This document shows positions 9,228 to 36,832 of a DNA stretch of 64,000 nt, piece by piece; the first letter of the stretch is position 1; every line of letters begins with the position of its first letter. Position numbers and translations under genes: made by a program. This DNA is from Lachnospiraceae bacterium (GTDB taxonomy: Bacteria; Bacillota; Clostridia; Lachnospirales; Lachnospiraceae): the NCBI GenBank assembly GCA_021205755.1, contig JAJPWX010000131.1:1-64000 (forward strand). Reading direction: 5' to 3'. A model generated the notes under the pieces. That model saw only the letters and a program-made list of their open reading frames with translations, searched no databases and was not told the origin of the DNA.

Positions 9228-9457
9228 CAGGAAAGAGAAAAATTTGGGTTGAAAAATGTTTTGCCCTGTTCTGGGAATTACCCATTCAGGAAAATGTTTG
9301 AGGGAGTACTTGGCAGCGTGTGGGAGCTGCCAAGTGTGAGTTATGAAATATATTAGCTCTTCGCTAATACTCCTATAATATAAAATGAAAATGTGTTGGA
9401 AATATGTCGGCTTTCTAAAAAAAGTGGGAAAATGCTAAAGAAATCATTGACGAAAAA

Positions 9458-9634
9458 TGATGCTGTTCTGAACAGCAGGCCACAGACCGCCTTCTTCGAA
9501 GGCTATATGCCGCTTGCGCGTCATATGTCTGAGGCTTGATGGGCGTTCCGCCCATCCCGAAATGAAAACACAGCCTTTAGCAGGTAAACCTGCACAGTCT
9601 GTTTTTTCATTTCGATGCTGTTCTGAACTGTTGC
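9458..9634 (-). repeat. modular palindromic intergenic repeat, copy A
   Basis: Read on the minus strand the element is a chain of hairpins: a terminal TTCAGAACAGCATC unit; GAAATGAAAA/TTTTCATTTC enclosing GCAGGTTTACCTGC; GATGGGCG-GAA-CGCCCATC; a CAGAC/GTCTG stem enclosing ATATG...CATAT and GCCTTC-GAA-GAAGGC; and a closing palindrome GCTGTTC-A-GAACAGC. A second copy lies at 35889-36174 in the opposite orientation, and a deleted form at about 52988-53031. It contains no credible gene and lies between the uvrA terminator and mreB. The bases 9228-9457 before it show nothing I recognise beyond a CTTGGCAGC/GCTGCCAAG hairpin near 9310-9335. Confidence 0.8.
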
Positions 9635-9772
9635 GAAAAAATATTTCCATTTTACGGTATACTGTGTTAAGATAATGGAAAAGATAACAGAAAAGAAGAT
9701 ACTGGATATCCGGGATAGAGGAGTTACCGGAAAGCAGGAAAATTGCTTTTGGATGGAAAGGGGTTTGTATTT

Positions 9773-34115: not shown

Positions 34116-35819
34116 ATGACAGCATTACTTATTATCCTTGTAGCCATTATTCTGCTGGTCATAGGTTACATCTACTATGGCTCATGGCTTGCAAAGCAGT
34201 GGGGCATTGACCCGAAAAAAGAGACTCCGGCTCATCGCCTGGAGGACGGCGTTGACTATTGCGCAGCGAAGCCCCAGGTTCTGATGGGACATCACTATTC
34301 ATCCATCGCGGGTGCCGGCCCGATCAATGGACCGATTCAGGCGTCTGTATTTGGATGGGTACCGGTATTCCTGTGGTGTATTATTGGCGGTATTTTCTTT
34401 GGCGGTGTACAGGACTTTGGTTCTCTGTTCGCTTCCATCCGGCATGACGGCAAGTCTGTCGGTGAGATTATCAAGGACTCTATGGGCAAAAGAGCGCAGA
34501 AGCTGTTTACGATTTTCGCTTTGCTGGTACTGCTTTTGGTAATTGCTTCCTTCGTAAACGTGGTAGCTGGTACATTCTACACTGCTGCGGGTGGCGGAGT
34601 TGGTTTTGTGACGAATCCGACGAACAACCAGACCACGGCTATGATTTCCCTGCTTTTCATTGTACTGGCGATTATTTATGGTATGTTGACGAACCGCGTC
34701 GGCCTGAAGACGACCCCGGCTACGATCATTGGTATTGTCTGTATTGTAGCGATGATCGCGTTTGGACTGAATGTTGGCTTTGCTATGAGCCGTATTGCCT
34801 AGATCGTTTTCATCGGTGCTTATATCACGATTGCTTCTTTGGTTCCGGTATGGATTCTGCTGCAGCCGCGTGATTACCTCTCCAGCTTCCTGCTTTACGC
34901 CATGATGGCGGTTGCACTGGTTGGTATTGTGTTCTCTGCGTTTGGCGGCGGAGCGGCGACCTTTGATATGCCGGCATTTACCGGCTGGAGCACGAATCTT
35001 GGTACGATGTTCCCGGTACTGTTCATCACGGTAGCCTGCGGTGCATGCTCTGGTTTCCACAGCCTGATTGCAACTGGTACAACATCCAAGCAGCTGAACA
35101 GCGAAGCGGATGCGAAACCGATCGGTTATGGCTCCATGCTGATTGAGTCTGCGCTTGGCATTATCGCTCTTATTGCGGTAGGTATGGTTTATGATACGTA
35201 TACCAGCGGCGGCTTCGGCTCCCCGGCAGTTGCGTTTGCTTCTGGTATTGCTCTGATGTTTGGCACGGACGGCAGCACAGTCAATGGCGTGATTAAGGCG
35301 CTCCTGACCCTGGCGGTTTCTGTATTTGCCCTGACCAGTCTGGATACCGGTACACGTTTGAGCCGTTTTATGTTCTCCGAGCTTTTCCTGAAAGAGGGAG
35401 AGACTTCCTACAAGGACGTGACGGGTGCACGTAGAATTCTGGCAAACCCGCTGTTCGGCACGATTTTCATGGTAGTGGTCGGCTGCATCCTCGGCGGTCT
35501 GAGCCTGTCTCAGATCTGGTCTCTGTTCGGAGCGGCCAATCAGCTGCTTGCTGGTATTGCCCTGATGGCGATCGCGGCATGGCTTGGCAACGCGGGTAAG
35601 AACAATAAGATGTTCTTCATCCCGATGATTTTCATGCTTGCGGCTACCCTGACCTATCTGATCATGACAGTTCAGAAGAAGATTGTCCTGATCGGCGGCG
35701 GCACAGCTGCGTGGGGCGACTGGTTCCAGTTCATCTTTGCGGCTGCCATGGCTGTTCTTGCGATTATCCTTGTCGTTGAAGGCGTGCAGGTATTTGCAAA
35801 GCAGGCAAAGAAGAAATAA
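34116..35819 (+). pseudogene. cstA: carbon starvation protein CstA, interrupted by in-frame TAG
   Basis: A multi-spanning transporter of the CstA family (peptide or pyruvate uptake in characterised members). The reading frame of 567 codons is open from ATG 34116 (after AAAGGAGAGAGA) to 35819, except for one TAG at 34800-34802 between MSRIA and IVFIGAYITIASLV. Both halves look intact: HHYSSIAGAGPINGPIQ before the stop, and CGACSGFHSLIATGTTSKQL and SLDTGTRLSR after it. The interrupted site sits in a membrane helix, and a Trp codon (TGG) there would need only one base change. As written it yields a 228-residue N-terminal fragment. Alternatives are suppressed TAG or a sequencing error; the intact downstream frame means the change is recent. 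Confidence 0.75.
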
Positions 35820-35847
35820 TTCCACTTTTCTGAAATGAATCATTTGT

Positions 35848-35887
35848 ACCGCTGCCGGCCAAATCCCGGCGGCGGTACGTTTTTTTG
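35848..35887 (+). terminator. terminator after cstA
   Basis: GTACCGCTGCCGG pairs with CCGGCGGCGGTAC (one mismatch region) around CCAAATC, followed by TTTTTTT at 35881. Confidence 0.85.
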
Positions 35888-35888
35888 A

Positions 35889-36174
35889 AAACAGTTCAGA
35901 GCAGCAACGAAATGAAAAGGCAGGTGCTGCGTGCCAGTGGCACGCGTTTAGCACCGACCGGAGCGAAGCGGAGACGTGCAGGTTTACCTGCTAAGGGCTG
36001 TATTTTCATTTCGGGATGGGCGGGCGCTGGATGTCCAGTGGACATCCGTTTAGCGCTGACCGAAGTGAAACGGAGACGCCCATCAAGCCGCAGACATATG
36101 ACGCGTATGCGGCATATAGCCTGCGTAGCAGGCGGTCTGCGGCCTTGCTGCTCTTCATTCAGAGCAGCATCGAA
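35889..36174 (+). repeat. modular palindromic intergenic repeat, copy B with two nested units
   Basis: This is the second full copy of the element at 9458-9634, in the opposite orientation. The same chain of hairpins is kept, but many stem bases differ in pairs: the closing palindrome reads GCTGCTC/GAGCAGC instead of GCTGTTC/GAACAGC, and GCCTGC/GCAGGC replaces GCCTTC/GAAGGC. Two related units of 54 and 56 bases (35923-35976, 36023-36078) are inserted; the second sits in the loop of GATGGGCG/CGCCCATC, replacing GAA. It lies between the cstA terminator and the apt promoter. A reading frame across it is a by-product. Confidence 0.8.
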
Positions 36175-36211
36175 ACGCAATCGATTAATCTATCATATGA
36201 TAAGGAAATAG

Positions 36212-36240
36212 TTGCGAAAAATGGCGGAAAATGATATACT
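36212..36240 (+). promoter_or_regulatory. promoter of apt
   Basis: TTGCGA (36212-36217), a 17-base spacer and TATACT (36235-36240), 68 bases before the apt start and just after the repeat element. Confidence 0.65.
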
Positions 36241-36307
36241 CGTGAAAAATGTCGACCAGATGCGGCGGACGAATCTGAAGCACACAAGAGAAGTGGAGGA
36301 ATAGAAA

Positions 36308-36832
36308 ATGAAAAAGCTCGAAGACTATGTAAGAAGTATTCCGGATTTCCCGGAGGAAGGTGTTATTTTTCGCGATGTCACAAGTATCCTGCAGGATGCG
36401 GATGGACTGAAGCTTTCCATTGATCTGATTCAGGAGAAGCTGGAGGGTCTTGATTTTGACGTGGTTGTCGGAACTGAGTCGAGAGGTTTTATTTTTGGAA
36501 TGCCGGTTGCATATAATCTGCATAAGCCGTTTGTTCCGGTTCGCAAAAAGGGTAAGCTTCCGTGTGAGACGATTTCCAAAGAATATGATCTGGAATATGG
36601 TTCCGCCACGATTGAAATGCATAAGGATGCGATTTTGCCGGGACAGAAGGTCGTAGTGATTGATGATCTGATCGCTACGGGCGGTACGATTGAGGCGGCG
36701 ATTCAGATGATTGAGGAGCTGGGCGGCGAAGTCGTGAAGGTTGTGTTTTTGATGGAGCTGGCGGGACTGAAAGGTCGGGAGAAGCTTGCTAAGTATGATG
36801 TTGAATCCGTGATATGTTATGAAGGAAAGTAG
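36308..36832 (+). CDS. apt: adenine phosphoribosyltransferase
   Basis: Salvages adenine to AMP using PRPP. 174 residues of normal length: YVRSIPDFPEEGVIFRDVT, VVGTESRGFIFGMPVAY, KKGKLPCETIS and the PRPP motif VVIDDLIATGGT (about residue 116). ATG 36308 follows AGTGGAGG. It stands just before relA/spoT, a common pairing (apt-relA) in Firmicutes, linking purine salvage with (p)ppGpp metabolism. Confidence 0.97.
   Translation: MKKLEDYVRSIPDFPEEGVIFRDVTSILQDADGLKLSIDLIQEKLEGLDFDVVVGTESRGFIFGMPVAYNLHKPFVPVRKKGKLPCETISKEYDLEYGSATIEMHKDAILPGQKVVVIDDLIATGGTIEAAIQMIEELGGEVVKVVFLMELAGLKGREKLAKYDVESVICYEGK

Follow-up and report, generated by a model that had tools for sequence, protein, structure and literature searches.

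Small palindromes that enter genes and RNAs are familiar as the Rickettsia palindromic elements (RPE), which occur in a different clade from the palindromic units treated here and are likened to them by description only. REP families, in the portion of the source available, are 20-40 bp long, bear GTAG or CGTC tags and have RAYTs (PMC3733652). In the same portion, REP/BIME sequences with their RAYTs resemble the units in being small palindromes, present many times per genome, with a folded single-strand form, and the REP tag GTAG at one end may or may not have a counterpart in the 3' ends of the units, which read GGAGA or GTAGA and in some cases GAAGA or GCAGA. The units differ from them in being longer (52-56 nt), in consisting of two stacked stems and a tail, in entering loops and other units, and in that two unit-rich genomes (G013 and G031) have no match to the Y1 transposase. 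The insertion sequences IS1397, IS621 and ISKpn1 are likewise mobile and take palindromes (REPs) as their target, but according to the part of the account at hand they are full insertion sequences with a transposase of their own rather than a hairpin of 52-56 nt (PMC1525189).

Nesting of such elements has also been described. The BOX, RUP and SPRITE elements of Streptococcus pneumoniae insert into one another (PMC3049150, available in part), and the first two carry inverted repeats at their ends and duplicate their target, features not seen in the units, the comparison being by description only. Palindromes of Volvox organelles are similar to the units in length (about 50 nt), in forming hairpins and in being often nested, but they reside in algal organelle genomes, have different loops, and the available excerpt of their description contains no tail module (PMC2670323). 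The GC clusters of yeast mitochondria (GC42) and the Allomyces double-hairpin elements are further tiny mobile palindromes; the former merge by a mechanism described as unsettled and, unlike the units, show putative target duplications of AG or ACT (PMC4478555 and work cited there, in the sections available). On these partial accounts the kind of system is already known, from nested small palindromes in organelles and in the pneumococcus, and within it the units appear to make up a new family, small, palindromic and non-autonomous. We found no description in the open-access literature of the unit family, its tail, its missing target duplication or its DNA-type covariation, and the papers listed by a full-text search with unit sequence strings were unrelated by title.

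A nested palindrome locus and its empty counterparts

The window, a stretch of 64,000 nucleotides from a Lachnospiraceae bacterium (assembly GCA_021205755.1, contig JAJPWX010000131.1), carries a large palindromic repeat, here called the host repeat, between the open reading frames 34839-35819 and 36308-36832, whose translations we take to be a CstA-like transporter and an adenine phosphoribosyltransferase. Two units lie within it (Table 1). Unit boundaries were set by unit-free copies together with a covariance model for which 11 units were used, one being a reconstruction. The preliminary description had recognised both units and had drawn the end of each two bases too far; for unit 2, the CG at 36077-36078 is the beginning of the host stem CGCCCATC and no part of the unit. 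Its statement that unit 2 stands in place of a GAA loop was correct, as most unit-free full copies read GATGGGCG-GAA-CGCCCATC, and at S1 most such copies read ...GACAGAC-TGTGCAGG...; the bases replaced are thus AC by unit 1 and GAA by unit 2 (or only AA if its first G is taken to have stayed in place). In two unit-free host copies (C47:21520-21760 and C88:30860-31090) the GAA loop is replaced by GGAGA, which is the 3' end of a unit, and these loops are possibly scars of excision or deletion.

Table 1. Positions of the window locus features and of related host sequences elsewhere (unprefixed positions are those of the window; G, C and L mark genomes, contigs and loci)
Feature	Position	Strand	Remarks
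Host (outer) palindromic repeat	35890..36159	+	about 175 nt minus two inserts; three-armed hairpin
Unit 1	35923..35974	+	52 nt; at host site S1; empty form in G010 is GACAG-AC-CGTGCAG
Unit 2	36023..36076	+	54 nt; at host site S2, in place of GAA loop of GATGGGCG/CGCCCATC
Host hairpin 5' arm holding unit 2, GATGGGCG	36015..36022	+	
Host hairpin 3' arm holding unit 2, CGCCCATC	36077..36084	+	
Partial direct repeat of host 5' arm, CAGAGCAGCATCGAAA	36160..36175	+	just downstream of host repeat
Second host-repeat copy in window, unit-free	stretch 9430..9670	-	internal control
Host copies with trailing 5'-arm repeat	window 36160-36175; C126:34220-34440; C105:44640-44850; C58:26380-26580; C7:10060-10400		
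Other GA-cis RNA matches	L156:3886-3966; L112:621-753; L110:664-792; L105:638-719; L123:7246-7330		
Further host groups	L127, L132, L163, L169, L181, C56, C7:27420, C30:93445; L139, L162, L185; L136, L141, L195		

The region 35888-36180 folds far below its shuffles (z -10.0), and an empty host copy folds at -62.1 kcal/mol (z -14.0). In the fold of the empty copy S2 is an apical loop and two further sites, S3/S4, lie at the three-way junction, and the position taken by unit 1 (S1) is an internal loop, not an apical one.

Searching the genome with the window region, with 40 of 120 candidates scored, returned at least 84 matches. Among those listed, 48 places were inspected, and the host repeat, whole or in part, was present at 40; 24 of these 40 are unit-free, and each of the other 16 contains between one and three units or the remnant of one. 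The region 35600-36500 was also searched in 36 genomes of the genus and the orthologous intergenic stretch read in six, in four of which (G001, G013, G014 and G033) the host repeat is absent. In G010 it is present with neither unit (GACAG-AC-CGTGCAG and GGGCG-GAA-CGCCC) and is followed, as in the window, by a similar partial direct repeat; in G031 it is truncated after ...GGGCTGTAT and holds only unit 1, which reads the same as unit 1 of the window, and a named genome record (L122) has the same junctions as the G031 locus. Since G010 has the host repeat without units and G031 has unit 1 alone, the host repeat came first and the units later, and the unit-free copies both in the genome and in the orthologous region of relatives identify the units as insertions. 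The sharing of site S2 by eight copies might suggest that the larger element contained the units from the start; the empty G010 orthologue, the 24 unit-free places out of 40 and the occurrence of units in many other contexts reduce the probability of that reading to almost nothing, and we reject it. The earlier proposal of a small element inserted in a larger one is therefore upheld, and we hold with high confidence that the nested insertion of this very small mobile palindrome is real and recurrent.

Two further observations concern the host repeat. Several host copies (Table 1) have after them a direct repeat of part of their 5' arm, in the sequence specific to that copy, and this may record how the host repeat itself inserts. 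Two host copies with near-identical flanks (C67:7560-7790 and C123:5020-5200) differ in that one has a unit and lacks part of the 3' arm.

The unit family and its sites of insertion

The covariance model (E up to 0.001) finds 47 unit matches in this genome, so that the genome-wide search which the preliminary description had suggested does uncover a dispersed family. The same model matches units in 33 of the 36 genomes of the genus, all except G017, G026 and G034, with up to 95 matches per genome (G008). Beyond the genus, units were found in 68 of 150 Lachnospiraceae genomes, one per genus, and in 1 of 24 genomes from other families of the order, the family counts being lower bounds on account of the stricter filters that apply when more than 40 genomes are searched at once. 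Named genome records contain at least 114 stretches with the exact unit pattern; most of those listed are labelled Lachnospiraceae or Clostridiales and one Oscillospiraceae, and the named carriers among the matches listed include Sporofaciens musculi and Oliverpabstia intestinalis. In many cases the named records were assembled from metagenomes, and the genomes compared are drafts. Carriage by phages or plasmids was considered and set aside: no exact unit-pattern match was found in IMG/VR and no match of window 35890-36180 among plasmids. One 56-base unit match lies in a phage-labelled sequence (L377, MT837121.1, positions 2488-2543), an unverified and unannotated 7.7-kb scaffold from human faeces.

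A script assigned 21 of the 47 matches to five sites named in the host repeat (S1 6, S2 8, S2b 2, S3 3, S4 2), the exact site being less certain for the 4 that lie in shortened host copies (C47:18109, C24, C67 and C111). Five lie inside other units, and 21 were classed as 'other', among which inspection by eye showed C10:114868 to be in a decayed host copy and C25:5360 and C93:4448 to be pieces of units hosting another unit. The five nested matches, a self-nesting of the organelle type, compare with an expectation of 0.03 under uniform insertion; the chance of five is about 2e-10 if insertion is uniform and 6e-6 if it is confined to 12% of the genome, the share assumed to be non-coding. Three units are nested one in another on C25, which can be compared with an empty counterpart in L192 (GGAGC-GA-AGCGG). 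Self-nesting also occurs outside this genome (L125, L143, L307 and L314), and L307/L314 have an empty counterpart in L329.

Different P2 stems (the inner stem of the unit) were counted at each of the main host sites, three at S2 and two each at S1, S3 and S4, which points to repeated insertion or gene conversion; the presence of several units at one site could derive in part from composite copying or gene conversion. Units thus enter pre-existing palindromic repeats, other units included, usually with loss of 0-2 bases after a G. Comparison of junctions with empty sites, made by eye on about ten site types, gave no clear target duplication, and only at one tRNA-Ser site of genome G171 were possibly more bases lost than usual. 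The flanks show a weak motif, RG-unit-CC, with a purine at -2 in 73 of 88 sites, G at -1 in 56, C at +1 in 56 and C at +2 in 44.

Other hosts and the preference for structured places

Hosts of the unit are not limited to this one repeat. At three loci (L126, L170 and L166) intact tRNA genes are followed by tRNA 3' fragments with units in their T-arms and variable regions, and in G171 reading by eye placed one unit in a tRNA-Glu, at its D-arm, and another in a tRNA-Ser, at its anticodon arm. The latter two tRNAs belong to a Glu-Tyr-Ser cluster (L305, G171:C29, 900-1260) in which one unit interrupts the Glu copy and another, oppositely oriented, the Ser copy. Splicing of the unit as a tRNA intron is not needed, because G171 has intact tRNA-Glu(TTC) and tRNA-Ser(GCT) counterparts elsewhere, and was rejected. 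Another unit (L135) sits within a 10-bp stem that resembles a terminator, and two coding genes were found to carry insertions, one for an integrase (L124) and one similar to a phage minor tail gene (C16).

The GA-cis RNA (RF02987) is also a host. Six matches to it were found in five of six loci with a similar host, one, L156:7425-7507, exceeding the gathering score of 34.7 with its 38.7 bits, and the other five (Table 1) below it at 25.1-31.9 bits. The matches at L112 and L110 span the unit as an insertion, the unit of L112 standing where the model has its last mini-hairpin, and L156 has a unit-free copy on the same contig. The units themselves matched no Rfam family: the window gave no gathering-level match, 16 loci searched at E up to 0.1 gave three tRNAs and four sub-threshold matches, and the six loci searched at E up to 1 gave only the GA-cis RNA. 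At least three further palindromic repeat families hosting the unit were observed (Table 1), which speaks for a mutually nested palindrome set in these bacteria, and the GA-cis RNA motif may itself be part of that set.

How far loops are preferred was measured on 88 non-redundant sites out of 148 pooled. The mean number of pairs spanning the junction, once the flanks are joined, was 6.45 against 4.57 (sd 0.46) for re-partnered flanks and 5.11 for random sites, with none of 200 re-partnered sets as high; the energy of the joined flanks was -8.60 against -7.25 (sd 0.15) and -5.36 respectively, so that in both pairing and energy the unit sites exceed every re-partnered set. Five or more spanning pairs were present at 54.5% of the 88 sites (42.8% re-partnered, 48.3% random) and eight or more at 35.2% (24.8% and 29.7%), leaving 45.5% with fewer than five. 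A stricter test on contiguous stems at 71 sites gave a mean of 2.70 against 2.21 for re-partnered flanks, the highest of 1000 sets reaching 2.52. The preference is real but modest, a bias towards structured places and no rule, and the idea that units always sit in hairpin loops fails in both the contiguous-stem and the folding tests. The claim of insertion specifically into loops survives in softened form: it describes the apical S2, the internal loop of S1, the junction at S3/S4, the tRNA arms, the terminator-like hairpin and the GA-cis mini-hairpin, but not the modest enrichment over 88 sites or the sites in protein genes.

A bias of this size might reflect survival only, insertion being random and persisting where it does least harm. 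The modest statistics and the insertions into the integrase and phage tail genes are in keeping with this, but identical positions in host repeats and units have been reused far above uniform expectation, and we consider survival alone a possible though rather doubtful account of the preference.

Covariation in the unit stems and the means of movement

Each unit consists in order of a 6-bp stem (P1), a stem of 7-8 bp (P2), an unpaired GTTT-like stretch and the tail GACCGNAGCGNAGCGNAGA with a mini-hairpin; P1 and P2 form one long hairpin, with the apex CC-AGT-GG in most units, so that the palindrome comprises two stacked stems and the mini-hairpin. When 120 matches were aligned (111 distinct rows, with 96 sources given), 98.9% of cells held standard pairs and 300 held double changes, with 13 of 17 pairs varying on both sides, counts that lean towards the structure to which the alignment was fitted. 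None of 500 shuffles reached the observed values for cells paired, pairs with double changes, double-change cells or covariation score, and 35 of 500 matched the count of further pair types. The paired changes first noted between the two units of the window are therefore real and family-wide.

RNA helices usually evolve through G.U. In the units G.T makes up 6 of 1832 standard pairs, against 49 G.U in 685 pairs of the 32 tRNAs predicted in the fetched loci, about 20-fold rarer, a result inflated by the preference of the covariance search for well-paired copies, which under-counts decayed copies with changes in one arm. With pair 1-37 excluded, nearest-neighbour units differ at both arms of a pair 86 times and at only one arm 13 times. 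The scarcity of G.T and the changes in both arms point to constraint or correction acting on folded DNA, and the unit stems fit such a regime.

The explanation that we favour, and consider fairly probable, is that the unit, a DNA element of 52-56 nt distributed across Lachnospiraceae, is mobile but non-autonomous and moves as a folded strand by means of an enzyme supplied in trans. In such a scheme the mobile form would be a folded single DNA strand, which a candidate trans-acting enzyme would cut and join at exposed loops and junctions, at RG/CC-like sites. The stems of the host palindrome would stay intact after insertion into a loop or junction, and nests could therefore build up. We infer this movement of folded DNA by a trans-acting enzyme from the features of the units and their sites.

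Three enzyme families were searched for, and none fits as a resident mobiliser. Among the 36 genus genomes the Y1 transposase (PF01797) has matches in 18, the IS110 transposase (PF02371) in 19 and reverse transcriptase (PF00078, RVT_1) in 25; this genome has two Y1, no PF02371 and three PF00078 matches. G013, which is 100% complete and has 31 units, matches none of the three families, and G031 (90% complete, 68 units) has no PF01797 match. Each family is thus without a match in at least one unit-rich genome, and all three were rejected as required residents. The absences argue against a resident requirement and not against past use, since the units of G013 could be inherited remains; they are compatible with a mobiliser lost after the units had spread or brought by a passing element.

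The TnpA(REP)-like mobiliser proposed earlier does not hold up against this distribution. Movement as a REP-like element by TnpA(REP)/RAYT or by an IS200-type Y1 transposase, an HUH enzyme using single-stranded hairpins, would suit the folded-DNA constraint and the lack of visible target duplication, and some unit tails end in GTAG or GGAG, of which the former is a REP tag in the available part of PMC3733652. Y1 is present in half of the genus genomes, but besides its absence from G013 and G031 no unit match lies within the approximately 3 kb fetched around each of this genome's two Y1 genes, and we think this route very unlikely. The unit might instead derive, in miniature form, from an ordinary insertion sequence (DDE, IS110 or other) with palindromes as its target. 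This reading has precedent in the insertion sequences that enter REPs (PMC1525189, as far as available) and could draw on the 19 genomes with PF02371. It is nevertheless quite unlikely: PF02371 is unmatched in this genome and in G013, the unit-free G017 has 13 PF02371 (and 11 PF00078) matches, and no target duplication was seen at the junctions compared.

Retroposition, in which a reverse transcriptase would insert an RNA copy, is suspected for the yeast mitochondrial GC clusters in the sections of PMC4478555 at hand, and it would accommodate the strong secondary structure, junctions variable by 0-2 nt, the RNA-like hosts (tRNA arms and GA-cis RNA) and the RVT_1 matches in 25 genomes. The rarity of G.T (G.U) pairs, the lack of any Rfam match for the units themselves and the lack of an RVT_1 match in G013 all count against it, and we hold it to be highly doubtful.

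No dedicated enzyme would be needed if units spread by template switching at the replication fork between folded strands, drawing on the short GG...C similarity of the unit's ends, with the arms being corrected from each other. This would account for the concerted arm changes (86 against 13), the imprecise junctions, the weak RG/CC flanks and the failure of all three enzyme families to match in G013. However, the tail and the apex are conserved across the family in a manner that looks like protein recognition, and we know of no case in which template switching has spread one sequence to dozens of sites; we rate this alternative as unlikely. Its full form, a hairpin that spreads itself without a transposase while its arms are rewritten from each other, is distinctly unlikely, and if true would mean that a gene-less sequence of 52-56 nt acts like a mobile element throughout a family of bacteria.

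Whatever the enzyme, the favoured folded-strand element brings together, in one bacterial family, targets that respect structure, orthologous empty sites and up to 95 matches per genome, and with these the question of how gene-less palindromes move can be put to the test in named isolates. The near lack of G.T pairs offers a simple sequence test for telling constraint at the level of DNA from constraint at the level of RNA. Annotation is affected as well, as units break up copies of tRNAs and of the GA-cis RNA, a hairpin resembling a terminator, and coding frames in these bacteria.
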